64,000 nt of DNA. It comes from Theocolax elegans. Lineage: Eukaryota; Arthropoda; Insecta; Hymenoptera; Cerocephalidae. The notes under the pieces were generated by a model, which did not search any database, had not been told where the DNA came from, and was given only the letters and a program-made list of their open reading frames with translations. The stretch is taken from assembly GCA_026168455.1 (NCBI GenBank), contig CM047430.1, positions 1,999,473-2,063,472 on the forward strand, in the 5' to 3' direction. Made by a program: the position numbers and the translations under genes. Shown piece after piece: positions 14,137 to 50,263 of the stretch (within the stretch, counting starts at the first letter, position 1; each line of letters starts with the position of its first letter).

Positions 14137-14236
14137 NNNNNNNNNNNNNNNNNNNNNNNNNNNNNNNNNNNNNNNNNNNNNNNNNNNNNNNNNNNNNNNN
14201 NNNNNNNNNNNNNNNNNNNNNNNNNNNNNNNNNNNN
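14137..14236. other. Assembly gap (100 N)
   Basis: Exactly 100 N's, probably a placeholder of unknown true size, at the distal end of the CT-rich satellite. Confidence 0.98.

Positions 14237-23323: not shown

Positions 23324-23375
<52 letters not shown>

Positions 23376-24291: not shown

Positions 24292-24350
<59 letters not shown>
23381..24350. repeat. Tandem duplication, unit B
   Basis: Second copy of the 964-bp unit in the same orientation, with the same two Helitron-like 3' ends and the terminal (TA)n run (about 24293-24349). The near-identity suggests a recent duplication or a collapsed/expanded assembly. Confidence 0.85.
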
Positions 24351-25385: not shown

Positions 25386-25475
25386 TATTTCGCCGCCGCC
25401 GCCGCCGCCGTGTCTAAGAATTCAGTATTCAACATATATATATATATATGTCATATATATATGTTATATATATGT

Positions 25476-25547
<72 letters not shown>
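25386..25547. repeat. GCC microsatellite followed by long (TA)n
   Basis: TTTCGCC(GCC)n then GTGTCTAAG at 25389-25419, then TA-rich sequence from 25431 to the CAGGGTGATCC end at 25548. The TA run with the interruption TACATATATATATA is the left flank of the large transposon and recurs at 41015-41028. Confidence 0.8.
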
Positions 25548-25570
25548 CAGGGTGATCCAGAAACATAGGT

Positions 25571-25619
<49 letters not shown>

Positions 25620-26278
25620 CGATTCAGAAAATTAATTCGAGCATAACCCCGTCGGAATTTTTAAAAAATATTAATTAGGCGAGGCGTAATTAAATTTTGA
25701 AATGGGCCAATCAGAGGCCGGATTAGGGAAGAAAGGTGAGCGGCGTTGCCGCGCGAGACAAATGCAACAGGTCAACGAGCGAAGCGGCCGAGGCGCCTGA
25801 ACATAGCTAATGCGTATAGCAGAAGCGAAGATCGCGAAAGCGAATGAATCGCAAAATATATTTTACGAGATTGATTGTATGAATAAAATGTACAATCACG
25901 GAAATGATTTTTATTTAAGTTTGAATTAGACCGCAGACTAATAAATTCATTACTACTATTATTAATTTACTTACTAAATCTATGATACGCGTGCGTTATA
26001 AATATGAGATTATTACAGTTTTTAATCTCATCGTATTTACATTAATTTATTGAAACCTTTATGACAAATTTTAAGACAATAAAGTTTTGAATTTAATTAA
26101 GTTTTGTGTACAATATAGCCAATAAATACGTTTACCATAAAGATATATCGCTACATATTGGAAATATATTAATTAATTTTGCAAGTATATTGGCAATAAT
26201 ATTGCTAGGTAAATAATTCCTAGTCCGTGTAAAATGAAATTTAGCTCAAGCCTCAATTCTCCGTTTAAAAAAACATAA

Positions 26279-26432
26279 TGCTACCGCGAGCGCTCTCCGA
26301 TGTTCGCGCACATCAAATTTTGTGTTCGCGGAGTAAGCCCGCCGCGGGCGCTCTCCGACGTTCGCGCTCATCAAATTTTGTACTCGCGGAGTAAGCCCGT
26401 CGCGGACGCTCTCCGACGTCCGCACTGCAAGA
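26279..26432. repeat. GC-rich three-unit repeat (copy 1 left arm)
   Basis: Three units of about 58 bp built on GCTCTCCGACGTTCGCGC, ATCAAATTTTGT and GCGGAGTAAGCCCG, rich in CpG within AT-rich DNA. Equivalents lie at about 40111-40263, 41757-41909 and 49403-49557. The 83-codon frame crossing it (MRTSESVRDGL...) is a repeat translation. Confidence 0.8.
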
Positions 26433-26998
26433 GCAAACGTGCTCGAAAAAAGTTACTTCGTTAAAATTACAATTCATTGTGTTTCAGACTTAATAAATAT
26501 TTTGGAAAACTCGTTCCAAATGTTTAGGATAATAATTGCAATAGTCTGGCTGTTGAATTGAATTGAATATTCAATATACAAAATGCCAATGAATAACTAC
26601 CATAAATTCGCAATATATTGGTAGTATATTAGCAATAATATTGCTAGTAAGTTAATTCCGAGTCCGTGTAAAATAAAATCTAGCTGAACCCTCGATTAAG
26701 TTTTATAATAGCCTGGGAATCATCTAGCTATAGTATATCTATAATATGTTTACGCTTACCAAATATTTTTAAACTGATTTTTTATAATATATTAGTATAT
26801 GCTGAACAAATCGATATCATTACAATTAATTGGATCATATCTTTGCTAAAAATCGGTATTATGAGAAATCGTGGATTTATGTCACGCATCTTAGTAATTA
26901 TTCGGATGACCAAAGACAGACGTTCATTCCCGTTTTCATTCACTTGAGGTAATAAAAGATCATCAATTCGACGGTAGTATTGACAATTTGGAAGACAC

Positions 26999-27272
26999 GA
27001 AACATATTGGCGATATATTGATAATACTTTGGCAATATGTTGGCAACATATTGGCAACATATTGGCAATATATTGGCAACATATTGGCAACATATTGGCA
27101 ATATATTGACAATACTTTGGCAACATATTGGCAATATATTGACAATACTTTGGCAACATATTGGCAATATATTGACAATACTTTGGCAACATATTGGCAA
27201 TATATTCACAATACTTTGGTAACATATTGGCAATATATTGACTACTTTGGCAACATATTGGCAATATATTGA
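26999..27272. repeat. 33-bp tandem array (copy 1 left arm)
   Basis: Unit TTGGCAATATATTGACAATA plus CTTTGGCAACATA, 33 bp, with variant half units (TTGGCAACATA). There are three full GACAATACT units plus one CACAATACT variant. The dyads CAATATATTG and ATATTGGCAA suggest protein-binding sites. Peptides such as NILPICCQSIV are translations of the repeat. Confidence 0.85.
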
Positions 27273-27501
27273 TAATACAAATAATAAATACCCGCGTAAA
27301 AAAATTAAAGTTTATATGAACTTTATATAAACTTTAGGTTTGGCTAAACTTGATATGGGGTTGGCCAACAAGACTGAGCCGAACTTGTGCATTGACTCTT
27401 CAAGTTTGGCGAAAGTATATCAAATGTTCAGCTGAAATTCATATAAAGTTTTTATAAAGTTTTTTTACAATTACTGACAAATAAAATATAGTTTATACTA
27501 A

Positions 27502-27892
27502 GTTTAGCTGAACTCAATATTAACGTGATAGCAAGTTCAGGTTTATAAAGTCATATAATGTTGATATCAACATACCCAAAGAAAAATTTTAGAAATCTTC
27601 TTTAACTGACATCAGTAAGAATACATCGGTTAGAAAAACGGAGATATATTCCAAAAAATTCGAATCCGTCTCTGAAAAGTGTTGTCCATTTCCTTAGTTT
27701 TGAAGACATACCTGAAAGAAGATATTTAAAAAACCACAAATTATCTATTTTACCATTTTTCTAACCGATGTATTCTTACTGATGTCAGTTAAAGAAGATT
27801 TCTAAAATTTTTCTTTGGGTATGTTGATATCAACATTATATGACTTTATAAACCTGAACTTGCTATCACGTTAATATTGAGTTCAGCTAAAC
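27502..27892. mobile_element. MITE, 391 bp, in the copy 1 left arm
   Basis: GTTTAGCTGAACTCAATATT at one end and its complement at the other, with terminal inverted repeats of roughly 145 bp. The flanks are TAA on the left and TTA on the right. The empty site in copy 3 (near 39078) reads TTA, so a 3-bp TWA duplication fits a PIF/Harbinger-type MITE. It is also present in copy 2 at 42979-43369. Confidence 0.7.
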
Positions 27893-29155
27893 TTACAAGG
27901 AGAGTGTTTGTACTCCGGAGAACAGATCTTATCCAGATTGAACACACTATTAGAAAAATAAAAAAGATGAAATAATTAGGATCTATTTTACCTATAAATT
28001 AGTTTGCAAATTATAAATTATTTACAATAAACTCAAAGATTAATAAAAAATAGCGCCAATGCGTCAATACTCAAAATAAGTAAGGAATTATTCACTTACA
28101 TAACTTTAGATTTTGTAACCGTTTCAAGCAGTCCATCTTATATTTCGAGCAGCGTTCCTTTTCATCTAGGTCCTGAAGAAGCACAAAAATAAATAATAAT
28201 AAATGGGCATTGGCTGACCATTAATCCTCCTTGTAGCTGCTGTTGTAGAAATCTGAAATTGATGTCTCGGATCCTGCTTTGTGTTGGTTTTATGGAGCAT
28301 CCCCACGTATAATCACACAGATTAAATCATTTTAAACATTTACAATACTTAAATTAGTCCACAAAATCATGAAGTCCATAAGAGCTCCCAGCAATTTAAT
28401 GCACATAACCTAGAAAATAATAAAAAAAATCACACAAAATATCAATTCATCAAAAACATTAATTTTTTTATTTAATAATTAATAATGTGCAATACTTATC
28501 TGACGTGCTTGTTGCCTGATAAATTCTTCTTCTCGTGCTAGCGATCCATCAAATAAATTGAATCAAAACAATGCTGAAGTGTCACAGGTGAGATGGTGAC
28601 CGGTCCTATAATTTACAAATTGCGCGATTGTTGGACTCTGCGTTTAGCAAAACCCTTTACGCTTGCTCGATACGCTCGTTCTTGACAGATCCTCTGTAAA
28701 AATAATCTATTTAATTATTATTTATTTTATATCTTTTTCACCGATAGTACGATTAAACTTTTATATAATTAATTTTATTTTTGAAAATTTAAACAATATT
28801 GGAAACTAGAACCAGTGTTTTTTTCATACAATATTGTTAATGCATAGCGTATTACGGTCTCAACCAATCAGACGAGGTTTATAGAGAGCTAATAAGAAAG
28901 AGAAAGAAACAAAGAGTAAGATGGATGCAACGTATTTTTGGCGAATTTTTTTAAAATTATCCGTGTTTGACTATTAGTCAATGTTTAAATGATAAAGTTA
29001 CCGCTCTAATTATTATTTGTTTGCAATTCTTTATTTGTATTTCTTTATTATTTATCGTTTATTATAGATTTATTTCTTTAAATTTTAATTAATTATTTGT
29101 AATTAATTCTCGTAAATAATTTAAATACTGAATTATTTATAAAATTCAAGCAAAA

Positions 29156-31013
29156 ATGGATGAAGTCGATGAAAATTGTTTATTTATTAATAAATCTGCA
29201 AAAGATTTTTCAAATGAATTTTTTACTGGTTGTTTTAATGTATGTGTAGAATATTTAAAACAAAGAGATTTCATAATTGAAAATAGAATGCCAAAAATTC
29301 CTGATCTTTATATTGAATCAACTGGAAAGGAAATGGCAAATTGTTAATTAATTATTTTAGTAATTTAGTTCCTGTTGAGGAGGAGTATTTATTTATCAAC
29401 AGTGAATTTGAGAAAAATTCAGGTGAAAATTCAGAAGGCAAATTTGAGGAAAATTTAGGTGAAAATTTAGAAGGCAAATTTTCACAAAGTTCAAATTCAA
29501 TGGTGGAAACATCTGATGAATCTGGTAGCTTTTTTAAATTTTGTATTCAATTTATTTAATTGTAATCTTTTCAAAATTTTAAAACAGTAGCTTCAAAATT
29601 CTTTAAATTGTAGAACTTGAAAGTCAATCAAATTTAAATGAGTATGAACCGGAAAAGAAAAGAAAATGTATATATTATATTCCAATCGATACCAAAATTA
29701 AAATATTGAACCTTGCAAGAGAGCATCCAAACTGGAAATTACCATCGACACAAAAAGCTGGTGGATCAGCTCTGACTCGCATGGATGAACTGACTAGATG
29801 GAGATCAGAGGTTGAAAAAGGTGGTACAAGAATTGAAAAGCAACGTTTCATAAATAATTGGGTGTATGATAGATTTGTTGAAGCAAGAGAGGTTAAAACA
29901 CCAGTTACGACCCGTAATTTACAAGAATGGGGATTACAGGCAGCTGGTCAATTCCAGAGCGAACATTTTATTTTCTGCGCTTCAAGTTCCTGGTCCAATA
30001 AACTAAAAAAAGAATACAAAATAAGTCAAAGAAAAATTACTAGATATATCAAGCCTACCGAGAGTAAATCCCTGGAAAAAATTCTGGAAGCTTCAACAAA
30101 TTTTGCAAATGAATGTTCGATGCAAATAAGGAATTACAACCAAGATTATGTGCTTAACACAGACCAAATTGGATGCGAATACAGAATGAACGTATTACGA
30201 ACCTTGGAACATAAGGGCACTAAATCTGTTGAAGTGGATATAGGCGATATGAATAAAGTGACCCACAGCTATACTGCACAGTACACAATCACAGCCTCTG
30301 GGAAATTGTTGCCTCTTGTATTTATATGTTTGCAAGAACAGAAGGGTGAATTCGGACCTGTAATTGCAGCAAAAGTATCGGCTCTCTCCGAAGAGTTTAA
30401 AAATGTCACAGTTGTTTGTTCAAAATCTGGAAAGTTGTCCTCTGCACTGTTCGGCATGTATGTAAGAAATACATTAGCTTCTTACATAAAAAAAGAAAAA
30501 TTTATACTTTTATTGGATAGTTGGAGCGGGCAAAAGGATACTAAATTCTTTGAAAATTTTAAGAATAATAATAATGAACCCACCTGGACAGTAAAAACGA
30601 TTCCACCTGGATGTACCAGTTTCAACCAACCGCTAGATGTTTATTTCCATAGGCAGGTGAAAATATTTATAAAAGAATTACAGAATTGTACCTTTTTAAT
30701 AGAACAAAAGCGGCAAATCAATTCTAGAGAAGATTGTGTTAAAATTCATTCGTTAGTGCAAAACCAATTATCTGCTCCAATTTTCACTGAAATGGTACGA
30801 TATGCTTGGTACGCATCAAGGCTCATTGATAAAAAAGATGTCTTTATGAACGTGAAGCAAGTCTGCTTTTCCAAGATTGTACGCCCAGCAAAATGTGTTT
30901 GTAACCAGAGAATTTCATTTATAAAATGTTCTTGGTGTCGTAAAAATTTATGTTTCAGTTGTTTTTATGATCAATATCACCCCAGAACCTGTGCAACATT
31001 TTCTGGAAAATAA
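29156..31013 (+). pseudogene. Pogo-like DDD transposase, copy 1 (one frameshift)
   Basis: Two exons: 29156-29524, intron 29525-29613 (GTAGCT...TTGTAG, 89 bp), 29614-31013. The intact form would have 589 residues. Exon 1 is acidic (MDEVDENCLF), with repeats of EGKFEENLGE. Exon 2 has a basic patch KKRK, a helix-turn-helix (KIKILNLAREHPNW), a CENP-B/Tc5-like DNA-binding segment (about 190-265), catalytic Asp 307 (NTDQIG), Asp 425 (LLLDSWSGQ) and Asp 465 (QPLDVYFHRQ) with 39 residues between the last two, and a Cys-rich C-terminus (about 551-583). It belongs to the IS630/Tc1/mariner superfamily, pogo side, and would cut and join the CAGGGTG ends. The only lesion is one missing T near 29338, which gives a stop directly after MANC; exon 2 is fully open. 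Confidence 0.88.
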
Positions 31014-31516
31014 CATTTTAATAAACTAACAATAAATTTCAAACATTATCATTATTAATATTTATTTATTATATTTTCACTTACATACCTTCACTTGACA
31101 AATTGAAAACAAAACTAAAATTCTGCTTTTATTTATTAAAATATGCAATATTAAAACACTTGATTTATTGTACCTGTAAAACAAAATCAATCACAAAGTA
31201 AAAATAATTATAATTTAAATGATAAATATGCACTATGTATATTAAATTAAAGTATACATATCTAATATTTACTGCTACACTCTCATAGAATTTGCACTCT
31301 CGTAGAATTACTTTTTAGTTTCTAGAATAAATAAACCCATTGGAAAATTGATTAAATAAAATAATCTGCCTAATCTGCAATAATTGCAAGTTTTTATGTT
31401 TCCTTTCCAATATACTACATAATCTATGCTATCTCTTTCCATCCATCAATTTAAAAAATATCGACCTCGTTGAGTGTGTGATTAGTTGTGAAGAGGTTAA
31501 GAAGTTATGTGTATAT

Positions 31517-33693
31517 AATTCTCCAAAAATACGTTGCATCCAATCCAGGGATGGGTAAGTAGAAAACTGTATGTCGAAAATACAGTTCTCTACGTTGTAG
31601 AAAACTATGTAAAATACGTCGAAAACTTTTCGAGGTCATACATTTATAGACTTGAGTTTTCTACATGTATGCAATCTCACACTTTGTTTCTTTCTCTTTC
31701 TTATTAGCTCTCTATAAACCTCGTCTGATTGGTTGAGACCGTAATACGCTATGCATTAACAATATTGTATGAAAAAAAACACTGGTTCTAGTTTCCAATA
31801 TTGTTTAAATTTTCAAAAATAAAATTAATTATATAAAAGTTTAATCGTACTATCGGTGAAAAAGATATAAAATAAATAATAATTAAATAGATTATTTTTA
31901 CAGAGGATCTGTCAAGAACGAGCGTATCGAGCGAGCGTAAAAGGGTTTTGCTAAACGCAGAGTCCAACAATCGCGCAATTTGTAAATTGTAGGACCGGTC
32001 ACCATCTCACCTGTGACACTTCAGCATTGTTTTAATTCAATTTATTTGATGGATCGCTAGCACGAGAAGAAGAATTTATCAGGCAACAAGCACGTCAGAT
32101 AAGTATTGCACATTATTAATTATTAAATAAAAAAATTAATGTTTTTGATGAATTGATATTTTGTGTGATTTTTTTTATTATTTTCTAGGTTATGTACATT
32201 AAATTGCTGGGAGCTCTTATGGACTTCATGATTTTGTGGACTAATTTAAGTATTGTAAATGTTTAAAATGATTTAATCTGTGTGATTATACGTGGGGATG
32301 CTCCATAAAACCAACACAAAGCAGGATCCGAGACATCAATTTCAGATTTCTACAACAGCAGCTACAAGGAGGATTAATGGTCAGCCAATGCCCATTTATT
32401 ATTATTATTTTTGTGCTTCTTCAGGACCTAGATGAAAAGGAACGCTGCTCAAAATATAAGATGGACTGCTTGAAACGGTTACAAAATCTAAAGTTATGTA
32501 AGTGAATAATTCCTTACTTATTTTGAGTATTGACGCATTGGCGCTATTTTTTATTAATCTTTGAGTTTATTGTAAATAATTTATAATTTGCAAACTAATT
32601 TATAGGTAAAATAGATCCTAATTATGGCAACATTCACACATTATGATTCAGTCGCTGGGGTAAGTAATAATTGACACTTCTAAAATAATGAAGAAGCCAG
32701 GATGCGACACTTATATCATATATTTAATTTATTAATATTAATTAATTTAAAATGGCTGCAGAATTACTTAGAAGTCCCATCGGACAAAACAAAAAAACAG
32801 GTATTTCATCTTTTTTATTTTTCTAATAGTGTGTTCAATCTGGATAAGATCTGTTCTCCGGAGTACAAACACTCTCCTTGTTAGTATAAACTATATTTTA
32901 TTTGTCAGTAATTGTAAAAAAACTTTATAAAAACTTTATATGAATTTCAGCTGAACATTTGATATACTTTCGCCAAACTTGAAGAGTCAATGCACAAGTT
33001 CGGCTCAGTCTTGTTGGCCAACCCATATCAAGTTTAGCCAAACCTAAAGTTTATATAAAGTTCATATAAACTTTAATTTTTTTACGCGGGTATTTATTAT
33101 TTGTATTATCAATATATTGCCAATATGTTGCCAAAGTAGTCAATATATTGCCAATATGTTACCAAAGTATTGTGAATATATTGCCAATATGTTGCCAAAG
33201 TATTGTCAATATATTGCCAATATGTTGCCAAAGTATTGTCAATATATTGCCAATATGTTGCCAATATGTTGCCAATATATTGCCAATATGTTGCCAATAT
33301 GTTGCCAACATATTGCCAAAGTATTATCAATATATCGCCAATATGTTTCGTGTCTTCCAAATTGTCATACTACCGTCGAATTGATGATCTTTTATTACCT
33401 CAAGTGAATGAAAACGGGAATGAACGTCTGTCTTTGGTCATCCGAATAATTACTAAGATGCGTGACATAAATCCACGATTTCTCATAATACCGATTTTAG
33501 CAAAGATATGATCCAATTAATTGTAATGATATCGATTTGTTCAGCATATACTAATATATTATAAAAAATCAGTTTAAAAATATTTGGTAAGCGTAAACAT
33601 ATTATAGATATACTATAGCTAGATGATTCCCAGGCTATTATAAAACTTAATCGAGGGTTCAGCTAGATTTTATTTTACACGGACTCGGAATTA
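31517..33693 (-). repeat. Copy 1 right inverted arm (truncated)
   Basis: Reverse complement of the left arm from AATTCTCCAAAAATACGTTG outward. It has a 140-bp insert with CCAGGGATGGGTAAG (about 31541-31682), the splice-flanked segment at 32626-32804, and a 33-bp array (about 33108-33345). It stops at ACTCGGAATTAAC (33693), where the complete arm of copy 2 continues for about another 1.1 kb to CACCCTG. Confidence 0.78.
33108..33345. repeat. 33-bp tandem array (copy 1 right arm)
   Basis: Inverted version of the array, with two full ATTGTCAAT units plus one ATTGTGAAT variant. It is one unit shorter than the left array of the same copy. Confidence 0.85.
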
Positions 33694-35466
33694 ACATATT
33701 GGCAATATATTGGCAACATATTGGCAACATATTGGCAATATATTGACAATACTTTGGCAACATATTGGCAATATATTGACAATACTTTGGCAACATATTG
33801 GCAATATATTCACAATACTTTGGTAACATATTGGCAATATATTGACTACTTTGGCAACATATTGGCAATATATTGATAATACAAATAATAAATACCCGCG
33901 TAAAAAAATTAAAGTTTATATGAACTTTATATAAACTTTAGGTTTGGCTAAACTTGATATGGGGTTGGCCAACAAGACTGAGCCGAACTTGTGCATTGAC
34001 TCTTCAAGTTTGGCGAAAGTATATCAAATGTTCAGCTGAAATTCATATAAAGTTTTTATAAAGTTTTTTTACAATTACTGACAAATAAATATAGTTTATA
34101 CTAACAAGGAGAGTGTTTGTACTCCGGAGAACAGATCTTATCCAGATTGAACACACTATTAGAAAAATAAAAAAGATGAAATACCTGTTTTTTTGTTTTG
34201 TCCGATGGGACTTCTAAGTAATTCTGCAGCCATTTTAAATTAATTAATATTAATAAATTAAATATATGATATAAGTGTCGCATCCTGGCTTCTTCATTAT
34301 TTTAGAAGTGTCAATTATTACTTACCCCAGCGACTGAATCATAATGTGTGAATGTTGCCATAATTAGGATCTATTTTACCTATAAATTAGTTTGCAAATT
34401 ATAAATTATTTACAATAAACTCAAAGATTAATAAAAAATAGCGCCAATGCGTCAATACTCAAAATAAGTAAGGAATTATTCACTTACATAACTTTAGATT
34501 TTGTAACCGTTTCAAGCAGTCCATCTTATATTTTGAGCAGCGTTCCTTTTCATCTAGGTCCTGAAGAAGCACAAAATAAATAATAATAAATGGGCATTGG
34601 CTGACCATTAATCCTCCTTGTAGCTGCTGTTGTAGAAATCTGAAATTGATGTCTCGGATCCTGCTTTGTGTTGGTTTTATGGAGCATCCCCACGTATAAT
34701 CACACAGATTAAATCATTTTAAACATTTACAATACTTAAATTAGTCCACAAAATCATGAAGTCCATAAGAGCTCCCAGCAATTTAATGTACATAACCTAG
34801 AAAATAATAAAAAAAATCACACAAATATCAATTCATCAAAAACATTAATTTTTTTATTTAATAATTAATAATGTGCAATACTTATCTGACGTGCTTGTTG
34901 CCTGATAAATTCTTCTTCTCGTGCTAGCGATCCATCAAATAAATTGAATTAAAACAATGCTGAAGTGTCACAGGTGAGATGGTGACCGGTCCTACAATTT
35001 ACAAATTGCGCGATTGTTGGACTCTGCGTTTAGCAAAACCCTTTTACGCTCGCTCGATACGCTCGTTCTTGACAGATCCTCTGTAAAAATAATCTATTTA
35101 ATTATTATTTATTTTATATCTTTTTCACCGATAGTACGATTAAACTTTTATATAATTAATTTTATTTTTGAAAATTTAAACAATATTGGAAACTAGAACC
35201 AGTGTTTTTTTTCATACAATATTGTTAATGCATAGCGTATTACGGTCTCAACCAATCAGACGAGGTTTATAGAGAGCTAATAAGAAAGAGAAGAAACAAA
35301 GTGTGAGATTGCATACATGTAGAAAACTCAAGTCTATAAATGTATGACCTCGAAAAGTTTTCGACGTATTTTACATAGTTTTCTACAACGTAGAGAACTG
35401 TATTTTCGACATACAGTTTTCTACTTACCCATCCCTGGATTGGATGCAACGTATTTTTGGAGAATT
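33694..35466 (+). repeat. Copy 3 right inverted arm (truncated), starting in the 33-bp array
   Basis: Begins inside the array (33694-33882, two full units plus variant) instead of at a CAGGGTG end. It then runs inward with the right-arm marks: the extra splice-flanked segment (about 34178-34360) and the CCAGGGATGGG insert (about 35300-35442, inverted). This identifies it as the right arm of the minus-strand copy. Confidence 0.78.
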
Positions 35467-35969
35467 ATATACACATAACTTCTTAACCTCTTCACAACTA
35501 ATCACACACTCAACGAGGTCGATATTTTTTAAATTGATGGATGGAAAGAGATAGCATAGATTATGTAGTATATTGGAAAGGAAACATAAAAACTTGCAAT
35601 TATTGCAGATTAGGCAGATTATTTTATTTAATCAATTTTCCAATGGGTTTATTTATTCTAGAAACTAAAAAGTAATTCTACGAGAGTGCAAATTCTATGA
35701 GAGTGTAGCAGTAAATATTAGATATGTATACTTTAATTTAATATACATAGTGCATATTTATCATTTAAATTATAATTATTTTTACTTTGTGATTGATTTT
35801 GTTTTACAGGTACAAATAAATCAAGTGTTTTAAATTGCATATTTTAATAAATAAAAGCAGAATTTTAGTTTTGTTTTCAATTTGTCAAGTGAAGGTATGT
35901 AAGTGAAAATATAATAAATAAATATTAATAATGATAATGTTTGAAATTTATTGTTAGTTTATTAAAATG

Positions 35970-37822
35970 TTATTTTCCAGAAAATGTTGCACAGGTTCTG
36001 GGGTGATATTGATCATAAAAACAACTGAAACATAAATTTTTACGACACCAAGAACATTTTATAAATGAAATTCTCTGGTTACAAACACATTTTGCTGGGC
36101 GTACAATCTTGGAAAAGCAGACTTGCTTCACGTTCATAAAGACATCTTTTTTATCAATGAGCCTTGATGCGTACCAAGCATATCGTACCATTTCAGTGAA
36201 AATTGGAGCAGATAATTGGTTTTGCACTAACGAATGAATTTTAACACAATCTTCTCTAGAATTGATTTGCCGCTTTTGTTCTATTAAAAAGGTACAATTC
36301 TGTAATTCTTTTATAAATATTTTCACCTGCCTATGGAAATAAACATCTAGCGGTTGGTTGAAACTGGTACATCCAGGTGGAATCGTTTTTACTGTCCAGG
36401 TGGGTTCATTATTATTCTTAAAATTTTCAAAGAATTTAGTATCCTTTTGCCCGCTCCAACTATCCAATAAAAGTATAAATTTTTTTTTTTATGTAAGAAG
36501 CTAATGTATTTCTTACATACATGCCGAACAGTGCAGAGGACAACTTTCCAGATTTTGAACAAACAACTGTGACATTTTTAAACTCTTCGGAGAGAGCCGA
36601 TACTTTTGCTGCAATTACAGGTCCGAATTCACCCTTCTGTTCTTGCAAACATATAAATACAAGAGGCAACAATTTCCCAGAGGCTGTGATTGTGTACTGT
36701 GCAGTATAGCTGTGGGTCACTTTATTCATATCGCCTATATCCACTTCAACAGATTTAGTGCCCTTATGTTCCAAGGTTCGTAATACGTTCATTCTGTATT
36801 CGCATCCAATTTGGTCTGTGTTAAGCACATAATCTTGGTTGTAATTCCTTATTTGCATCGAACATTCATTTGCAAAATTTGTTGAAGCTTCCAGAATTTT
36901 TTCCAGGGATTTACTCTCGGTAGGCTTGATATATCTAGTAATTTTTCTTTGACTTATTTTGTATTCTTTTTTTAGTTTATTGGACCAGGAACTTGAAGCG
37001 CAGAAAATAAAATGTTCGCTCTGGAATTGACCAGCTGCCTGTAATCCCCATTCTTGTAAATTACGGGTCGTAACTGGTGTTTTAACCTCTCTTGCTTCAA
37101 CAAATCTATCATACACCCAATTATTTATGAAACGTTGCTTTTCAATTCTTGTACCACCTTTTTCAACCTCTGATCTCCATCTAGTCAGTTCATCCATGCG
37201 AGTCAGAGCTGATCCACCAGCTTTTGTGTCGATGGTAATTTCCAGTTTGGATGCTCTCTTGCAAGGTTCAATATTTTAATTTTGGTATCGATTGGAATAT
37301 AATATATACATTTTCTTTTCTTTTCCGGTTCATACTCATTTAAATTTGATTGACTTTCAAGTTCTACAATTTAAAGAATTTTGAAGCTACTGTTTTAAAA
37401 TTTTGAAAAGATTACAATTAAATAAATTGAATACAAAATTTAAAAAAGCTACCAGATTCATCAGATGTTTCCACCATTGAATTTGAACTTTGTGAAAATT
37501 TGCCTTCTAAATTTTCACCTAAATTTTCCTCAAATTTGCCTTCTGAATTTTCACCTGAATTTTTCTCAAATTCACTGTTGATAAATAAATACTCCTCCTC
37601 AACAGGAACTAAATTACTAAAATAATTAATTAACAAATTTGCCATTTCCTTTCCAGTTGATTCAATATAAAGATCAGGAATTTTTGGCATTCTATTTTCA
37701 ATTATGAAATCTCTTTGTTTTAAATATTCTACACATACATTAAAACAACCAGTAAAAAATTCATTTGAAAAATCTTTTGCAGATTTATTAATAAATAAAC
37801 AATTTTCATCGACTTCATCCAT
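35970..37822 (-). pseudogene. Pogo-like DDD transposase, copy 3 (two frameshifts)
   Basis: Minus-strand copy: exon 1 37822-37453 (intact, 134-codon frame with MANLLINYF), intron 37452-37364, exon 2 37363-35970. The same catalytic residues and zinc-like tail are present. Exon 2 differs from copies 1 and 2 in three places. One A is missing from the five-A run near 37230. Two bases, with the interrupting G, are lost from the A-rich KKEK region at 36480-36491. One AAT codon is lost from the Asn run near 36412. The first two break the frame, so no full protein is encoded. All lesions lie in low-complexity runs. Confidence 0.88.
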
Positions 37823-38029
37823 TTTTGCTTGAATTTTATAAATAATTCAGTATTTAAATTATTTACGAGAATTAATTACAAATAATTAATTAAAATTTAA
37901 AGAAATAAATCTATAATAAACGATAAATAATAAAGAAATACAAATAAAGAATTGCAAACAAATAATAATTAGAGCGGTAACTTTATCATTTAAACATTGA
38001 CTAATAGTCAAACACGGATAATTTTAAAA

Positions 38030-40968
38030 AATTCGCCAAAAATACGTTGCATCCATCTTACTCTTTGTTTCTTTCTCTTTCTTATTAGCTCTCTATAAAC
38101 CTCGTCTGATTGGTTGAGACCGTAATACGCTATGCATTAACAATATTGTATGAAAAAACACTGGTTCTAGTTTCCAATATTGTTTAAATTTTCAAAAATA
38201 AAATTAATTATATAAAAGTTTAATCGTACTATCGGTGAAAAAGATATAAATAAATAATAATTAAATAGATTTTTACAGAGGATCTGTCAAGAACGAGCGT
38301 ATCGAGCAAGCGTAAAAGGGTTTTGCTAAACGCAGAGTCCAACAATCGCGCAATTTGTAAATTATAGGACCGGTCACCATCTCACCTGTGACACTTCAGC
38401 ATTGTTTTGATTCAATTTATTTGATGGATCGCTAGCACGAGAAGAAGAATTTATCAGGCAACAAGCACGTCAGATAAGTATTGCACATTATTAATTATTA
38501 AATAAAAAAATTAATGTTTTTGATGAATTGATATTTTGTGTGATTTTTTTTATTATTTTCTAGGTTATGTGCATTAAATTGCTGGGAGCTCTTATGGACT
38601 TCATGATTTTGTGGACTAATTTAAGTATTGTAAATGTTTAAAATGATTTAATCTGTGTGATTATACGTGGGGATGCTCCATAAAACCAACACAAAGCAGG
38701 ATCCGAGACATCAATTTCAGATTTCTACAACAGCAGCTACAAGGAGGATTAATGGTCAGCCAATGCCCATTTATTATTATTTATTTTTGTGCTTCTTCAG
38801 GACCTAGATGAAAAGGAACGCTGCTCGAAATATAAGATGGACTGCTTGAAACGGTTACAAAATCTAAAGTTATGTAAGTGAATAATTCCTTACTTATTTG
38901 AGTATTGACGCATTGGCGCTATTTTTATTAATCTTTGAGTTTATTGTAAATAATTTATAATTTGCAAACTAATTTATAGGTAAAATAGATCCTAATTATT
39001 TCATCTTTTTTATTTTTCTAATAGTGTGTTCAATCTGGATAAGATCTGTTCTCCGGAGTACAAACACTCTCCTTGTTAGTATAAACTATATTTATTTGTC
39101 AGTAATTGTAAAAAAACTTTATAAAAACTTTATATGAATTTCAGCTGAACATTTGATATACTTTCGCCAAACTTGAAGAGTCAATGCACAAGTTCGGCTC
39201 AGTCTTGTTGGCCAACCCCATATCAAGTTTAGCCAAACCTAAAGTTTATATAAAGTTCATATAAACTTTAATTTTTTTACGCGGGTATTTATTATTTGTA
39301 TTATCAATATATTGCCAATATGTTGCCAAAGTAGTCAATATATTGCCAATATGTTACCAAAGTATTGTGAATATATTGCCAATATGTTGCCAAAGTATTG
39401 TCAATATATGCCAATATGTTGCCAAAGTATTGTCAATATATTGCCAATATGTTGCCAATATGTTGCCAATATATTGCCAATATGTTGCCAATATGTTGCC
39501 AACATATTGCCAAAGTATTATCAATATATCGCCAATATGTTTCGTGTCTTCCAAATTGTCAATACTACCGTCGAATTGATGATCTTTTATTACCTCAAGT
39601 GAATGAAAACGGGAATGAACGTCTGTCTTTGGTCATCCGAATAATTACTAAGATGCGTGACATAAATCCACGATTTCTCATAATACCGATTTTAGCAAAG
39701 ATATGATCCAATTAATTGTAATGATATCGATTTGTTCAGCATATACTAATATATTATAAAAAATCAGTTTAAAAATATTTGGTAAGCGTAAACATATTAT
39801 AGATATACTATAGCTAGATGATTCCCAGGCTATTATAAAACTTAATCGAGGGTTCAGCTAGATTTTATTTTACACGGACTCGGAATTAACTTACTAGCAA
39901 TATTATTGCTAATATACTACCAATATATTGCGAATTTATGGTAGTTATTCATTGGCATTTTGTATATTGAATATTCAATTCAATTCAACAGCCAGACTAT
40001 TGCAATTATTATCCTAAACATTTGGAACGAGTTTTCCAAAATATTTATTAAGTCTGAAACACAATGAATTGTAATTTTAACGAAGTAACTTTTTTCGAGC
40101 ACGTTTGCTCTTGCAGTGCGGACGTCGGAGAGCGTCCGCGACGGGCTTACTCCGCGAGTACAAAATTTGATGAGCGCGAACGTCGGAGAGCGCCCGCGGC
40201 GGGCTTACTCCGCGAACACAAAATTTGATGTGCGCGAACATCGGAGAGCGCTCGCGGTAGCATTATGTTTTTTAAACGGAGAATTGAGGCTTGAGCTAAA
40301 TTTCATTTTACACGGACTAGGAATTATTTACCTAGCAATATTATTGCCAATATACTTGCAAAATTAATTAATATATTTCCAATATGTAGCGATATATCTT
40401 TATGGTAAACGTATTTATTGGCTATATTGTACACAAAACTTAATTAAATTCAAAACTTTATTGTCTTAAAATTTGTCATAAAGGTTTCAATAAATTAATG
40501 TAAATACGATGAGATTAAAAACTGTAATAATCTCATATTTATAACGCACGCGTATCATAGATTTAGTAAGTAAATTAATAATAGTAGTAATGAATTTATT
40601 AGTCTGCGGTCTAATTCAAACTTAAATAAAAATCATTTCCGTGATTGTACATTTTATTCATACAATCAATCTCGTAAAATATATTTTGCGATTCATTCGC
40701 TTTCGCGATCTTCGCTTCTGCTATACGCATTAGCTATGTTCAGGCGCCTCGGCCGCTTCGCTCGTTGACCTGTTGCATTTGTCTCGCGCGGCAACGCCGC
40801 TCACCTTTCTTCCCTAATCCGGCCTCTGATTGGCCCATTTCAAAATTTAATTACGCCTCGCCTAATTAATATTTTTTAAAAATTCCGACGGGGTTATGCT
40901 CGAATTAATTTTCTGAATCGGAATATATATATATATATATATGTTACCTATGTTTCTGGATCACCCTG
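38030..40968 (-). repeat. Copy 3 left inverted arm (complete, MITE-free)
   Basis: Runs outward from ATTCGCCAAAAATACGTTG to the CACCCTG end. It carries a 33-bp array (about 39303-39535) and the GC-rich triple repeat (about 40111-40263). It lacks both the MITE and the right-arm-specific inserts, so it supplies empty sites for each (TTAGTATAAAC near 39077; CCTAATTATTTCATC near 38991). Confidence 0.8.
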
Positions 40969-40974
40969 TATATA

Positions 40975-41022
<48 letters not shown>

Positions 41023-41028
41023 TATATA
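40969..41028. repeat. (TA)n palindromic spacer between copies 3 and 2
   Basis: Sixty bases, TA repeats with TATATATGTATATA on one side and TATACATATATATA on the other, so it is its own reverse complement. It joins two CAGGGTG ends head to head and equals the left flank at 25532-25547 in each direction. Confidence 0.85.
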
Positions 41029-41051
41029 CAGGGTGATCCAGAAACATAGGT

Positions 41052-41098
<47 letters not shown>

Positions 41099-44000
41099 CG
41101 ATTCAGAAAATTAATTCGAGCATAACCCCGTCGGAATTTTTAAAAAATATTAATTAGGCGAGGCGTAATTAAATTTTGAAATGGGCCAATCAGAGGCCGG
41201 ATTAGGGAAGAAAGGTGAGCGGCGTTGCCGCGCGAGACAAATGCAACAGGTCAACGAGCGAAGCGGCCGAGGCGCCTGAACATAGCTAATGCGTATAGCA
41301 GAAGCGAAGATCGCGAAAGCGAATGAATCGCAAAATATATTTTACGAGATTGATTGTATGAATAAAATGTACAATCACGGAAATGATTTTTATTTAAGTT
41401 TGAATTAGACCGCAGACTAATAAATTCATTACTACTATTATTAATTTACTTACTAAATCTATGATACGCGTGCGTTATAAATATGAGATTATTACAGTTT
41501 TTAATCTCATCGTATTTACATTAATTTATTGAAACCTTTATGACAAATTTTAAGACAATAAAGTTTTGAATTTAATTAAGTTTTGTGTACAATATAGCCA
41601 ATAAATACGTTTACCATAAAGATATATCGCTACATATTGGAAATATATTAATTAATTTTGCAAGTATATTGGCAATAATATTGCTAGGTAAATAATTCCT
41701 AGTCCGTGTAAAATGAAATTTAGCTCAAGCCTCAATTCTCCGTTTAAAAAACATAATGCTACCGCGAGCGCTCTCCGATGTTCGCGCACATCAAATTTTG
41801 TGTTCGCGGAGTAAGCCCGCCGCGGGCGCTCTCCGACGTTCGCGCTCATCAAATTTTGTACTCGCGGAGTAAGCCCGTCGCGGACGCTCTCCGACGTCCG
41901 CACTGCAAGAGCAAACGTGCTCGAAAAAAGTTACTTCGTTAAAATTACAATTCATTGTGTTTCAGACTTAATAAATATTTTGGAAAACTCGTTCCAAATG
42001 TTTAGGATAATAATTGCAATAGTCTGGCTGTTGAATTGAATTGAATATTCAATATACAAAATGCCAATGAATAACTACCATAAATTCGCAATATATTGGT
42101 AGTATATTAGCAATAATATTGCTAGTAAGTTAATTCCGAGTCCGTGTAAAATAAAATCTAGCTGAACCCTCGATTAAGTTTTATAATAGCCTGGGAATCA
42201 TCTAGCTATAGTATATCTATAATATGTTTACGCTTACCAAATATTTTTAAACTGATTTTTTATAATATATTAGTATATGCTGAACAAATCGATATCATTA
42301 CAATTAATTGGATCATATCTTTGCTAAAAATCGGTATTATGAGAAATCGTGGATTTATGTCACGCATCTTAGTAATTATTCGGATGACCAAAGACAGACG
42401 TTCATTCCCGTTTTCATTCACTTGAGGTAATAAAAGATCATCAATTCGACGGTAGTATTGACAATTTGGAAGACACGAAACATATTGGCGATATATTGAT
42501 AATACTTTGGCAATATGTTGGCAACATATTGGCAACATATTGGCAATATATTGGCAACATATTGGCAACATATTGGCAATATATTGACAATACTTTGGCA
42601 ACATATTGGCAATATATTGACAATACTTTGGCAACATATTGGCAATATATTGACAATACTTTGGCAACATATTGGCAATATATTCACAATACTTTGGTAA
42701 CATATTGGCAATATATTGACTACTTTGGCAACATATTGGCAATATATTGATAATACAAATAATAAATACCCGCGTAAAAAAATTAAAGTTTATATGAACT
42801 TTATATAAACTTTAGGTTTGGCTAAACTTGATATGGGGTTGGCCAACAAGACTGAGCCGAACTTGTGCATTGACTCTTCAAGTTTGGCGAAAGTATATCA
42901 AATGTTCAGCTGAAATTCATATAAAGTTTTTATAAAGTTTTTTTACAATTACTGACAAATAAAATATAGTTTATACTAAGTTTAGCTGAACTCAATATTA
43001 ACGTGATAGCAAGTTCAGGTTTATAAAGTCATATAATGTTGATATCAACATACCCAAAGAAAAATTTTAGAAATCTTCTTTAACTGACATCAGTAAGAAT
43101 ACATCGGTTAGAAAAACGGAGATATATTCCAAAAAATTCGAATCCGTCTCTGAAAAGTGTTGTCCATTTCCTTAGTTTTGAAGACATACCTGAAAGAAGA
43201 TATTTAAAAACCACAAATTATCTATTTTACCATTTTTCTAACCGATGTATTCTTACTGATGTCAGTTAAAGAAGATTTCTAAAATTTTTCTTTGGGTATG
43301 TTGATATCAACATTATATGACTTTATAAACCTGAACTTGCTATCACGTTAATATTGAGTTCAGCTAAACTTACAAGGAGAGTGTTTGTACTCCGGAGAAC
43401 AGATCTTATCCAGATTGAACACACTATTAGAAAAATAAAAAAGATGAAATAATTAGGATCTATTTTACCTATAAATTAGTTTGCAAATTATAAATTATTT
43501 ACAATAAACTCAAGATTAATAAAAAATAGCGCCAATGCGTCAATACTCAAAATAAGTAAGGAATTATTCACTTACATAACTTTAGATTTTGTAACCGTTT
43601 CAAGCAGTCCATCTTATATTTCGAGCAGCGTTCCTTTTCATCTAGGTCCTGAAGAAGCACAAAAATAAATAATATAAATGGGCATTGGCTGACCATTAAT
43701 CCTCCTTGTAGCTGCTGTTGTAGAAATCTGAAATTGATGTCTCGGATCCTGCTTTGTGTTGGTTTTATGGAGCATCCCCACGTATAATCACACAGATTAA
43801 ATCATTTTAAACATTTACAATACTTAAATTAGTCCACAAAATCATGAAGTCCATAAGAGCTCCCAGCAATTTAATGCACATAACCTAGAAAATAATAAAA
43901 AAAATCACACAAAATATCAATTCATCAAAAACATTAATTTTTTTATTTAATAATTAATAATGTGCAATACTTATCTGACGTGCTTGTTGCCTGATAAATT

Positions 44001-44424
44001 CTTCTTCTCGTGCTAGCGATCCATCAAATAAATTGAATCAAAACAATGCTGAAGTGTCACAGGTGAGATGGTGACCGGTCCTATAATTTACAAATTGCGC
44101 GATTGTTGGACTCTGCGTTTAGCAAAACCCTTTTACGCTTGCTCGATACGCTCGTTCTTGACAGATCCTCTGTAAAAATAATCTATTTAATTATTATTTA
44201 TTTTATATCTTTTTCACCGATAGTACGATTAAACTTTTATATAATTAATTTTATTTTTGAAAATTTAAACAATATTGGAAACTAGAACCAGTGTTTTTTT
44301 TCATACAATATTGTTAATGCATAGCGTATTACGGTCTCAACCAATCAGACGAGGTTTATAGAGAGCTAATAAGAAAGAGAAAGAAACAAAGAGTAAGATG
44401 GATGCAACGTATTTTTGGCGAATT
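41029..44424 (+). repeat. Copy 2 left terminal inverted arm
   Basis: Same order as the copy 1 left arm: terminus, (TA)n, GC-rich segment, GC-rich triple repeat (about 41757-41909), 33-bp array (about 42478-42750, three full units plus variant), MITE (42979-43369). It ends at ACGTATTTTTGGCGAATT. Confidence 0.8.
42979..43369. mobile_element. MITE, second copy, in the copy 2 left arm
   Basis: The same 391-bp element at the same position as in copy 1, GTTTAGC...GCTAAAC, nearly identical in sequence. Confidence 0.7.
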
Positions 44425-44631
44425 TTTTAAAATTATCCGTGTTTGACTATTAGTCAATGTTTAAATGATAAAGTTACCGCTCTAATTATTATTTGTTTGC
44501 AATTCTTTATTTGTATTTCTTTATTATTTATCGTTTATTATAGATTTATTTCTTTAAATTTTAATTAATTATTTGTAATTAATTCTCGTAAATAATTTAA
44601 ATACTGAATTATTTATAAAATTCAAGCAAAA

Positions 44632-46489
44632 ATGGATGAAGTCGATGAAAATTGTTTATTTATTAATAAATCTGCAAAAGATTTTTCAAATGAATTTTTT
44701 ACTGGTTGTTTTAATGTATGTGTAGAATATTTAAAACAAAGAGATTTCATAATTGAAAATAGAATGCCAAAAATTCCTGATCTTTATATTGAATCAACTG
44801 GAAAGGAAATGGCAAATTTGTTAATTAATTATTTTAGTAATTTAGTTCCTGTTGAGGAGGAGTATTTATTTATCAACAGTGAATTTGAGAAAAATTCAGG
44901 TGAAAATTCAGAAGGCAAATTTGAGGAAAATTTAGGTGAAAATTTAGAAGGCAAATTTTCACAAAGTTCAAATTCAATGGTGGAAACATCTGATGAATCT
45001 GGTAGCTTTTTTAAATTTTGTATTCAATTTATTTAATTGTAATCTTTTCAAAATTTTAAAACAGTAGCTTCAAAATTCTTTAAATTGTAGAACTTGAAAG
45101 TCAATCAAATTTAAATGAGTATGAACCGGAAAAGAAAAGAAAATGTATATATTATATTCCAATCGATACCAAAATTAAAATATTGAACCTTGCAAGAGAG
45201 CATCCAAACTGGAAATTACCATCGACACAAAAAGCTGGTGGATCAGCTCTGACTCGCATGGATGAACTGACTAGATGGAGATCAGAGGTTGAAAAAGGTG
45301 GTACAAGAATTGAAAAGCAACGTTTCATAAATAATTGGGTGTATGATAGATTTGTTGAAGCAAGAGAGGTTAAAACACCAGTTACGACCCGTAATTTACA
45401 AGAATGGGGATTACAGGCAGCTGGTCAATTCCAGAGCGAACATTTTATTTCTGCGCTTCAAGTTCCTGGTCCAATAAACTAAAAAAAGAATACAAAATAA
45501 GTCAAAGAAAAATTACTAGATATATCAAGCCTACCGAGAGTAAATCCCTGGAAAAAATTCTGGAAGCTTCAACAAATTTTGCAAATGAATGTTCGATGCA
45601 AATAAGGAATTACAACCAAGATTATGTGCTTAACACAGACCAAATTGGATGCGAATACAGAATGAACGTATTACGAACCTTGGAACATAAGGGCACTAAA
45701 TCTGTTGAAGTGGATATAGGCGATATGAATAAAGTGACCCACAGCTATACTGCACAGTACACAATCACAGCCTCTGGGAAATTGTTGCCTCTTGTATTTA
45801 TATGTTTGCAAGAACAGAAGGGTGAATTCGGACCTGTAATTGCAGCAAAAGTATCGGCTCTCTCCGAAGAGTTTAAAAATGTCACAGTTGTTTGTTCAAA
45901 ATCTGGAAAGTTGTCCTCTGCACTGTTCGGCATGTATGTAAGAAATACATTAGCTTCTTACATAAAAAAAGAAAAATTTATACTTTTATTGGATAGTTGG
46001 AGCGGGCAAAAGGATACTAAATTCTTTGAAAATTTTAAGAATAATAATAATGAACCCACCTGGACAGTAAAAACGATTCCACCTGGATGTACCAGTTTCA
46101 ACCAACCGCTAGATGTTTATTTCCATAGGCAGGTGAAAATATTTATAAAAGAATTACAGAATTGTACCTTTTTAATAGAACAAAAGCGGCAAATCAATTC
46201 TAGAGAAGATTGTGTTAAAATTCATTCGTTAGTGCAAAACCAATTATCTGCTCCAATTTTCACTGAAATGGTACGATATGCTTGGTACGCATCAAGGCTC
46301 ATTGATAAAAAAGATGTCTTTATGAACGTGAAGCAAGTCTGCTTTTCCAAGATTGTACGCCCAGCAAAATGTGTTTGTAACCAGAGAATTTCATTTATAA
46401 AATGTTCTTGGTGTCGTAAAAATTTATGTTTCAGTTGTTTTTATGATCAATATCACCCCAGAACCTGTGCAACATTTTCTGGAAAATAA
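44632..46489 (+). pseudogene. Pogo-like DDD transposase, copy 2 (one frameshift)
   Basis: Exon 1 44632-45001 (intact), intron 45002-45090 (GTAGCT...TTGTAG), exon 2 45091-46489. Splicing joins an acidic exon-1 end to ELESQSNLNEYEPEKKRK in frame. The only lesion is a missing T in a TTTT run near 45448, just before FCASSSW. The frame is open before it (to 45482) and after it (from 45404). Domain order and the catalytic Asp residues are as in copy 1. Because copies 1 and 2 are broken at different single bases, their consensus is an open 589-codon gene. The spliced structure implies expression in a nucleus that removes the 89-bp intron. Promoter elements upstream of 44632 could not be assigned. 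Confidence 0.9.
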
Positions 46490-47902
46490 CATTTTAATAA
46501 ACTAACAATAAATTTCAAACATTATCATTATTAATATTTATTTATTATATTTTCACTTACATACCTTCACTTGACAAATTGAAAACAAAACTAAAATTCT
46601 GCTTTTATTTATTAAAATATGCAATATTAAAACACTTGATTTATTTGTACCTGTAAAACAAAATCAATCACAAAGTAAAAATAATTATAATTTAAATGAT
46701 AAATATGCACTATGTATATTAAATTAAAGTATACATATCTAATATTTACTGCTACACTCTCATAGAATTTGCACTCTCGTAGAATTACTTTTTAGTTTCT
46801 AGAATAAATAAACCCATTGGAAAATTGATTAAATAAAATAATCTGCCTAATCTGCAATAATTGCAAGTTTTTATGTTTCCTTTCCAATATACTACATAAT
46901 CTATGCTATCTCTTTCCATCCATCAATTTAAAAAATATCGACCTCGTTGAGTGTGTGATTAGTTGTGAAGAGGTTAAGAAGTTATGTGTATATAATTCTC
47001 CAAAAATACGTTGCATCCAATCCAGGGATGGGTAAGTAGAAAACTGTATGTCGAAAATACAGTTCTCTACGTTGTAGAAAACTATGTAAAATACGTCGAA
47101 AACTTTTCGAGGTCATACATTTATAGACTTGAGTTTTCTACATGTATGCAATCTCACACTTTGTTTCTTTCTCTTTCTTATTAGCTCTCTATAAACCTCG
47201 TCTGATTGGTTGAGACCGTAATACGCTATGCATTAACAATATTGTATGAAAAAAAACACTGGTTCTAGTTTCCAATATTGTTTAAATTTTCAAAAATAAA
47301 ATTAATTATATAAAAGTTTAATCGTACTATCGGTGAAAAAGATATAAAATAAATAATAATTAAATAGATTATTTTTACAGAGGATCTGTCAAGAACGAGC
47401 GTATCGAGCGAGCGTAAAAGGGTTTTGCTAAACGCAGAGTCCAACAATCGCGCAATTTGTAAATTGTAGGACCGGTCACCATCTCACCTGTGACACTTCA
47501 GCATTGTTTTAATTCAATTTATTTGATGGATCGCTAGCACGAGAAGAAGAATTTATCAGGCAACAAGCACGTCAGATAAGTATTGCACATTATTAATTAT
47601 TAAATAAAAAAATTAATGTTTTTGATGAATTGATATTTTGTGTGATTTTTTTTATTATTTTCTAGGTTATGTACATTAAATTGCTGGGAGCTCTTATGGA
47701 CTTCATGATTTTGTGGACTAATTTAAGTATTGTAAATGTTTAAAATGATTTAATCTGTGTGATTATACGTGGGGATGCTCCATAAAACCAACACAAAGCA
47801 GGATCCGAGACATCAATTTCAGATTTCTACAACAGCAGCTACAAGGAGGATTAATGGTCAGCCAATGCCCATTTATTATTATTTATTTTTGTGCTTCTTC
47901 AG

Positions 47903-47975
47903 GACCTAGATGAAAAGGAACGCTGCTCAAAATATAAGATGGACTGCTTGAAACGGTTACAAAATCTAAAGTTAT
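47903..47975 (+). other. Candidate internal exon in the right arm
   Basis: A 73-base segment preceded by a strong acceptor (TTTTTGTGCTTCTTCAG) and followed by GTAAGT. One frame reads DLDEKERCSKYKM then DCLKRLQNLKL, which has a coding look. It is present in all arms (inverted in left arms). The continuing segment after the next AG (48084) reads CKIDPNYGNIHTL then stops. The function is unknown; it may be the relic of a second gene of the element. Confidence 0.35.
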
Positions 47976-48101
47976 GTAAGTGAATAATTCCTTACTTATT
48001 TTGAGTATTGACGCATTGGCGCTATTTTTTATTAATCTTTGAGTTTATTGTAAATAATTTATAATTTGCAAACTAATTTATAGGTAAAATAGATCCTAAT
48101 T

Positions 48102-48278
48102 ATGGCAACATTCACACATTATGATTCAGTCGCTGGGGTAAGTAATAATTGACACTTCTAAAATAATGAAGAAGCCAGGATGCGACACTTATATCATATA
48201 TTTAATTTATTAATATTAATTAATTTAAAATGGCTGCAGAATTACTTAGAAGTCCCATCGGACAAAACAAAAAAACAG
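48102..48278 (+). other. Right-arm-specific exon-intron-exon segment
   Basis: ATG at 48102 opens MATFTHYDSVAG, followed at 48138 by a consensus donor GTAAGT. An acceptor TGGCTGCAG ends at 48239, and the next 39 bases read NYLEVPSDKTKKQ in the joined frame, followed by another donor-like GTATTT. The segment is absent from left arms, where only one TAT remains in place of TAT...TAT. It also occurs in copies 1 (32626-32804) and 3 (about 34178-34360). It could be a captured gene fragment. The joined frame meets a stop soon after the last donor if read into the next acceptor (CTAATAG). Confidence 0.35.
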
Positions 48279-50263
48279 GTATTTCATCTTTTTTATTTTT
48301 CTAATAGTGTGTTCAATCTGGATAAGATCTGTTCTCCGGAGTACAAACACTCTCCTTGTTAGTATAAACTATATTTTATTTGTCAGTAATTGTAAAAAAA
48401 CTTTATAAAAACTTTATATGAATTTCAGCTGAACATTTGATATACTTTCGCCAAACTTGAAGAGTCAATGCACAAGTTCGGCTCAGTCTTGTTGGCCAAC
48501 CCCATATCAAGTTTAGCCAAACCTAAAGTTTATATAAAGTTCATATAAACTTTAATTTTTTTACGCGGGTATTTATTATTTGTATTATCAATATATTGCC
48601 AATATGTTGCCAAAGTAGTCAATATATTGCCAATATGTTACCAAAGTATTGTGAATATATTGCCAATATGTTGCCAAAGTATTGTCAATATATTGCCAAT
48701 ATGTTGCCAAAGTATTGTCAATATATTGCCAATATGTTGCCAATATGTTGCCAATATATTGCCAATATGTTGCCAATATGTTGCCAACATATTGCCAAAG
48801 TATTATCAATATATCGCCAATATGTTTCGTGTCTTCCAAATTGTCAATACTACCGTCGAATTGATGATCTTTTATTACCTCAAGTGAATGAAAACGGGAA
48901 TGAACGTCTGTCTTTGGTCATCCGAATAATTACTAAGATGCGTGACATAAATCCACGATTTCTCATAATACCGATTTTTAGCAAAGATATGATCCAATTA
49001 ATTGTAATGATATCGATTTGTTCAGCATATACTAATATATTATAAAAAATCAGTTTAAAAATATTTGGTAAGCGTAAACATATTATAGATATACTATAGC
49101 TAGATGATTCCCAGGCTATTATAAAACTTAATCGAGGGTTCAGCTAGATTTTATTTTACACGGACTCGGAATTAACTTACAAGCAATATTACTGCTAATA
49201 TACTACCAATATATTGCGAATTTATGGTAGTTATTCATTGGCATTTTGTATATTGAATATTCAATTCAATTCAACAGCCAGACTATTGCAATTATTATCC
49301 TAAACATTTGGAACGAGTTTTCCAAAATATTTATTAAGTCTGAAACACAATGAATTGTAATTTTAACGAAGTAACTTTTTTCGAGCACGTTTGCTCTTGC
49401 AGTGCGGACGTCGGAGAGCGTCCGCGACGGGCTTACTCCGCGAGTACAAAATTTGATGAGCGCGAACGTCGGAGAGCGCCCGCGGCGGGCTTACTCCGCG
49501 AACACAAAATTTGATGTGCGCGAACATCGGAGAGCGCTCGCGGTAGCATTATGTTTTTTAAACGGAGAATTGAGGCTTGAGCTAAATTTCATTTTACACG
49601 GACTAGGAATTATTTACCTAGCAATATTATTGCCAATATACTTGCAAAATTAATTAATATATTTCCAATATGTAGCGATATATCTTTATGGTAAACGTAT
49701 TTATTGGCTATATTGTACACAAAACTTAATTAAATTCAAAACTTTATTGTCTTAAAATTTGTCATAAAGGTTTCAATAAATTAATGTAAATACGATGAGA
49801 TTAAAAACTGTAATAATCTCATATTTATAACGCACGCGTATCATAGATTTAGTAAGTAAATTAATAATAGTAGTAATGAATTTATTAGTCTGCGGTCTAA
49901 TTCAAACTTAAATAAAAATCATTTCCGTGATTGTACATTTTATTCATACAATCAATCTCGTAAAATATATTTTGCGATTCATTCGCTTTCGCGATCTTCG
50001 CTTCTGCTATACGCATTAGCTATGTTCAGGCGCCTCGGCCGCTTCGCTCGTTGACCTGTTGCATTTGTCTCGCGCGGCAACGCCGCTCACCTTTCTTCCC
50101 TAATCCGGCCTCTGATTGGCCCATTTCAAAATTTAATTACGCCTCGCCTAATTAATATTTTTTAAAAATTCCGACGGGGTTATGCTCGAATTAATTTTCT
50201 GAATCGGAATATATATATATATATATATATATGTTACCTATGTTTCTGGATCACCCTGTATAT

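Follow-up and report, generated by a model that had tools for sequence, protein, structure and literature searches.

Three copies of a nested transposon insertion in + / - / + order in the genome assembly of Theocolax elegans

A stretch of 64,000 nucleotides from the wasp Theocolax elegans (assembly GCA_026168455.1, contig CM047430.1, here C6, positions 1,999,473 to 2,063,472; hereafter the window) contains a repeated unit made of nested transposable elements that is present three times in + / - / + order. The outer element, O, holds a miniature inverted-repeat transposable element (MITE) at its centre and carries a larger transposon, T. Self-alignment of the window and searches for the element ends place copy 1 at 25548-33692 (+), copy 3 at 33693-40968 (-) and copy 2 at 41029-50258 (+), with T in +, - and + orientation respectively. 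The polarity of the copies is read from T and the MITE because the O arms are near-palindromic. With kilobase repeats at more than 99% identity, chance is no issue, and the order is confirmed as a feature of the assembled sequence. The features of the locus, including its two inverted junctions, J_R and J_L, are as follows.

25434..25547, no strand: TA-rich left flank of copy 1, an ATG-(TA)n-CAT tract
25548..27501, +: copy 1, O left arm
27502..27895, +: copy 1, MITE of 393-394 bp at the O centre
27896..32880, +: copy 1, T, Tc5/pogo-like transposon
29706..31013, +: copy 1, T transposase open reading frame (ORF) of 435 amino acids, DDE_1, with a Tc5 C-terminal domain match below cut-off
32881..33692, +: copy 1, O right arm, truncated, the last ~1.08 kb gone
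33693..33695, no strand: J_R, inverted junction, AAC compatible with both sides
33693..34104, -: copy 3, right-type O arm, truncated (outer ~1.49 kb), starting within the 33-bp array
34105..39075, -: copy 3, T inverted, with flanks TAA...TTA
39076..40968, -: copy 3, full O arm, of right type near T, without the MITE and without the extra 33-bp unit
40923..41074, no strand: J_L, perfect 152-bp palindrome, its centre the 60-bp spacer at 40969-41028
41029..42979, +: copy 2, O left arm
42980..43372, +: copy 2, MITE
43373..48358, +: copy 2, T
48359..50258, +: copy 2, complete O right arm, followed by the right flank

The original prediction took the repeated unit to be one large transposon; comparison with the remainder of the genome (658 Mb in 1277 contigs searched) resolves it instead into three nested elements. 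O has inverted arms of ~1.95 kb with CAGGGTG ends and a 33-bp array in each arm, and is inserted at TA or TATA in most copies with visible ends. Its very long inverted arms, internal repeats and lack of a coding core make it Foldback-like, coding being judged only from the absence of ORFs of at least 200 amino acids in the arms. The MITE is 393 bp long and internally palindromic, and is widespread on its own too, as seen from the best 40 of 600 candidate matches scored genome-wide. T is ~5 kb long with terminal repeats of ~1.2 kb and is inserted at TTA, which stands on both sides of it in copies 1 and 2 and at 45.24 Mb on C6, where T lies outside O; a further copy, at 43.50 Mb on contig C1, is cut on one side. 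The T core is found at 98% identity or more at five places in these three loci (three of them here), the next-best match being at 73%, and among the genome matches T lies within O at this locus only. The T transposase matches DDE_1 (PF03184) at 24.3 bits, above the cut-off of 22, and the Tc5 C-terminal domain (PF04236) at 23.8 bits (E = 5.8e-5), under the cut-off of 27.4; the latter domain is annotated on many relatives of this transposase. Most named relatives, at ~45-50% identity, belong to ants, other Hymenoptera or spiders, and comparison of the ORF with solved structures gave no useful match (best E 0.047). From its sequence, T appears to be an autonomous transposon similar to the Tc5/pogo group, with which it shares the DDE_1 transposase and the TTA duplication, and from which it differs in the length of its terminal repeats and in a Tc5 C-terminal match below the Pfam cut-off.

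Only copy 2 is full length (9230 bp), with identical ends CAGGGTGATCCAG. The right arm is short at its outer end by ~1.08 kb in copy 1 and by ~1.49 kb in copy 3: copy 1 reaches element position ~8148, and copy 3 enters at 7743 and continues in reverse as far as the left end. The left flank adjoins copy 1 only and the right flank copy 2 only. Together, the position of the flanks at the outer copies and the shortened right arms of copies 1 and 3 match one locus copied as A-B / b / B-C. As assembled, this is an inverted triplication: one lineage present three times, its middle copy inverted and its outer copies retaining both flanks. Self-alignment and end searches bear out the three near-identical copies and their order as first proposed, and the reading as an inverted triplication of one locus gains new support from the mirrored T flanks of copy 3 and from a second, diverged + / - / + O element, both described below. 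The near-identity stands for T, which differs by indels only, but not for the whole copies, given the missing parts of the right arms.

Both junctions lie in self-pairing DNA, as had been predicted: J_L in a palindrome and J_R at a motif and an array. At J_L, the 60-bp spacer at 40969-41028 is its own reverse complement and sits inside the perfect 152-bp palindrome; a similar but longer ATG-(TA)n-CAT tract lies left of copy 1. At J_R, the right arm departs just before a solitary array-like motif and resumes inverted in the 33-bp array, with a microhomology of 3 bp (AAC) and an offset of ~0.4 kb. The expected tail-to-tail join is indeed an inverted junction, at 33692/33693, but it is not a symmetric turn (~8148 against 7743). 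When folded as DNA, the J_R region gives a z of -31.75 against 20 shuffles, which merely reflects the large inverted repeat. Seven further places in the genome match the J_R sequence over at least 250 of 271 bp; among the four inspected, the motif-to-array junction is inverted in L043 and L044, and direct in L045 and at 8.7 Mb on C6.

Aligned over 5404 columns, the three copies show 22 indels and two adjacent mismatch columns, and both mismatch columns become indels once the copies are realigned with an outside copy as reference, leaving no clear substitution in the ~5 kb of T. Between the local T copies and the one at 45.24 Mb on C6, 40 of 4924 shared sites differ. Deletions found in a single copy number 11 in copy 3, four in copy 1 and three in copy 2. 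A pattern of small indels only is typical of uncorrected long-read errors. The T copies are either very young, or homogenised, or one single sequence.

Copy 3 differs from the others in several markers. The MITE is present at 27502-27895 and 42980-43372 and missing from copy 3, where both arms outside T are of right type, without the MITE and with one 33-bp unit fewer; at the MITE site, copy 3 matches right-arm sequence exactly. Inside the terminal repeats of T, copy 3 behaves like a true inversion in that the right-only insert of ~177 bp lies on the expected side, as do five point differences, and its T flanks are mirrored (TAA...TTA), which is not a target duplication. An AAA variant is common to both copy 3 arms and absent from the other four arms of the window, which have AAAA; outside the window, it occurs in 2 of 64 matches and AAAA in the other 62. 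Two point differences near arm position 1090, considered as a left/right diagnostic, were dropped as they are private to the right arm of copy 2 and uninformative. An inversion of T alone, between its two ends, was rejected as a sufficient account, since it would retain the MITE on one side whereas copy 3 lacks it on both, and excision of the MITE from copy 3 is not favoured, as a clean loss with one TA leaves one base fewer than observed. Among O elements, arms of the same locus differ by a median of 0.51% (29 pairs), against 2.41% between loci (674 pairs). The low difference within loci fits arm-to-arm conversion, and recent transposition with matched arms could contribute to it; the shared AAA would likewise fit conversion of one copy 3 arm by the other.

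The survey of O covers the 29 loci discernible from the best matches, which are not a random sample. It includes one further + / - / + locus, at 16.57 Mb on contig C5, where MITE centres lie in this order inside one O with O ends at the outer edges only. Over 393 bp, these centres are 1, 3 and 4 substitutions apart, and 6-20 from those of most other loci, which marks them as one lineage and not as fresh copies. The first junction there has a 469-bp offset and a 6-bp overlap, and the second lies within the array. Two centres are found in ++ order at L017 and L029; at 8.7 Mb on C6, the ++ centres belong to two separate O elements, the flank and O having been duplicated in tandem. A MITE fragment accompanies a full centre in the same orientation at L020, L026 and L037, and mirrored MITE fragments and array pieces on either side of the centre form a lengthened palindrome at L025. 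L028 has no MITE centre, and the remaining 19 loci besides the window have a single one. At L013 (2428-4393), the O array has grown to ~2 kb, and flank and O are also repeated there.

Elsewhere in the window, an abutting direct repeat of ~964 bp at 22417-24348 has 8 gap openings and no mismatch, and represents a recent tandem duplication or else a local error in the assembly. An assembly gap (a run of 100 N) stands beside a short tandem array at 14137-14236. The window also holds a MITE-like near-palindrome of 341 bp (7348-7688, 91.5% self-complementary) and a further element-like inverted repeat with ~620-bp arms at 98.9% identity (58876-60473).

We favour, with a probability of about 0.5, an origin in which one nested insertion was tripled by two template switches at self-complementary DNA during replication or repair. 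The strand would have switched first from the right-arm motif back into the 33-bp array, and then, within the TA palindrome next to the left end, back to the forward direction; alternatively, J_R may stem from a symmetric switch followed by a deletion. Later gene conversion between the arms of copy 3 would have replaced the stretch with the MITE and the extra 33-bp unit by right-arm sequence. We infer both switches (or a switch and a deletion), the origin from a single insertion and the later conversion, and a double switch followed by arm conversion is the simplest account with a precedent for each step.

Origin-dependent inverted-repeat amplification (ODIRA), which the original prediction had put forward, is a poorer fit. 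In yeast, its junctions prefer a spacing of 40-80 bp (PMC10766183) at short inverted repeats, and the ~0.4-kb offset of J_R lies outside this range unless a secondary deletion is assumed. Wide spacings in yeast have been put down to such deletions (PMC10766183), and in one model the palindromes that result from inverted triplication are unstable and acquire longer spacers (PMC10766186). A secondary deletion could hide the original J_R site; on that view, J_L is the unaltered junction and J_R has lost part of an arm. Because the spacing at J_R departs from the preferred one and origin dependence is a matter outside the sequence, we do not file the locus as ODIRA.

Several points weigh against the double switch. 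It requires two events, and J_R exceeds the spacing that ODIRA prefers. The TA run in the outer arm of copy 3 is 20 bp long, compared to 24 bp in the right arm of copy 2 and to 42 and 44 bp in the left arms, so that no marker shows the outer part of this arm as left type; this short run is also outside the reach of the truncated donor arm, which calls for a separate contraction or for the direct tandem discussed next. The excess of deletions in copy 3 also fits a weakly supported middle copy. Finally, the other motif-to-array junctions may be related by descent and so would not be independent events.

Ranking close behind the double template switch, and still unlikely in itself, is a direct tandem of two complete O elements (25548-40968 and 41029-50258), the first of which gained an inverted T by fold-back of its right arm, the strand returning through homology between the two terminal repeats of T. 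The outer arm of copy 3 is right-type in its TA run, 33-bp unit and missing MITE, and resembles on the + strand a normal right end; a tandem duplication of flank and O is indeed found at 8.7 Mb on C6. This scenario nevertheless requires a breakpoint exactly at the O end and a spacer that is palindromic by chance, and the copy 3 arms share a variant that is absent from the right arm of copy 1. We consider slightly less probable again an assembly or library artefact, in which chimeric reads, missed adapters or the wrong joining of palindromic arms made a single composite appear as + / - / +. It would agree with the absence of clear substitutions and with the small indels, mostly deletions and mostly in copy 3, and the nearby ~964-bp direct repeat also differs by gaps only. 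Yet a second pass over one molecule would retain the MITE, the 33-bp unit and the T flanks, which copy 3 does not, and the MITE difference had rightly been held against a pure read artefact from the start. A missed adapter gives a middle pass that is the complement of a neighbouring one around a single turning point, which neither the markers of copy 3 nor the ~0.4-kb turn offset allow. The asymmetry of J_R and the diverged + / - / + O element at another locus also speak against an artefact.

Much less credible is a series of independent insertions, in which the composite entered one TA tract in alternating orientation and a deletion later arose at the centre of the tail-to-tail palindrome. 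O does target TA or TATA, and the literature describes palindromes as unstable structures that tend to rearrange further (PMC10766186), but a similar interrupted tract lies left of both copy 1 and copy 2, T within O is found at this locus only, and the T flanks of copy 3 are not a target duplication. Head-to-head insertions were also rejected as a full account, given the interrupted TA tract shared by copies 1 and 2 and the mirrored T flanks of copy 3. Beyond this locus, we tentatively raise the somewhat doubtful possibility that O elements triplicate themselves, their kilobase arms and self-complementary arrays acting as strand-switch points, so that an element and any passenger, here T, would gain copies by inverted triplication in the course of DNA synthesis, with no transposase involved; arm-to-arm conversion would then obscure the tracks.

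Several known systems share features with this locus. Yeast ODIRA triplications (PMC11790251, PMC10766183) share the + / - / + order, junctions at short inverted repeats and, at some junctions, the deletion of an arm; here the event lies inside a transposon with kilobase arms and has an offset of ~0.4 kb instead of the preferred 40-80 bp. Duplication-inverted triplication-duplication rearrangements (DUP-TRP/INV-DUP; PMC4352052, and PMC10766186, which offers a palindrome model for them) have an inverted middle copy, junction homology of a few bases and an inverted-repeat substrate, whereas in T. elegans the duplicated single-copy flank is limited to the TA tract and the structure was found in an assembly and not as a new mutation. 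Small inverted triplications (PMC13334657) show the same DUP/INV/DUP order, a spacer and short junction homology, with units of ~150 bp compared to 7-9 kb here. Galileo and Foldback elements of Drosophila (PMC4168063, PMC2775673) resemble O in their long, internally repetitive, variable and recombining inverted arms, and there too exchanged target duplications mark recombination. Unlike O, Galileo belongs to the P superfamily and makes 7-8 bp duplications, and the excerpts of these two papers describe no inverted triplication. No publication describing a transposon in inverted triplication was found in one open literature library, searched with limited terms.

Most inverted triplications described so far arose as new mutations, whether in yeast, in human disease or in cancer. 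The window adds a case from a natural genome, inside a transposon, and another member of the family, at a different locus, offers a second one that has diverged further. If this is confirmed, O elements would form natural hot spots for such events, whose many copies would allow the rules that sequence sets for strand switching to be read, and inverted triplication would be a route by which transposons gain copies without transposing.

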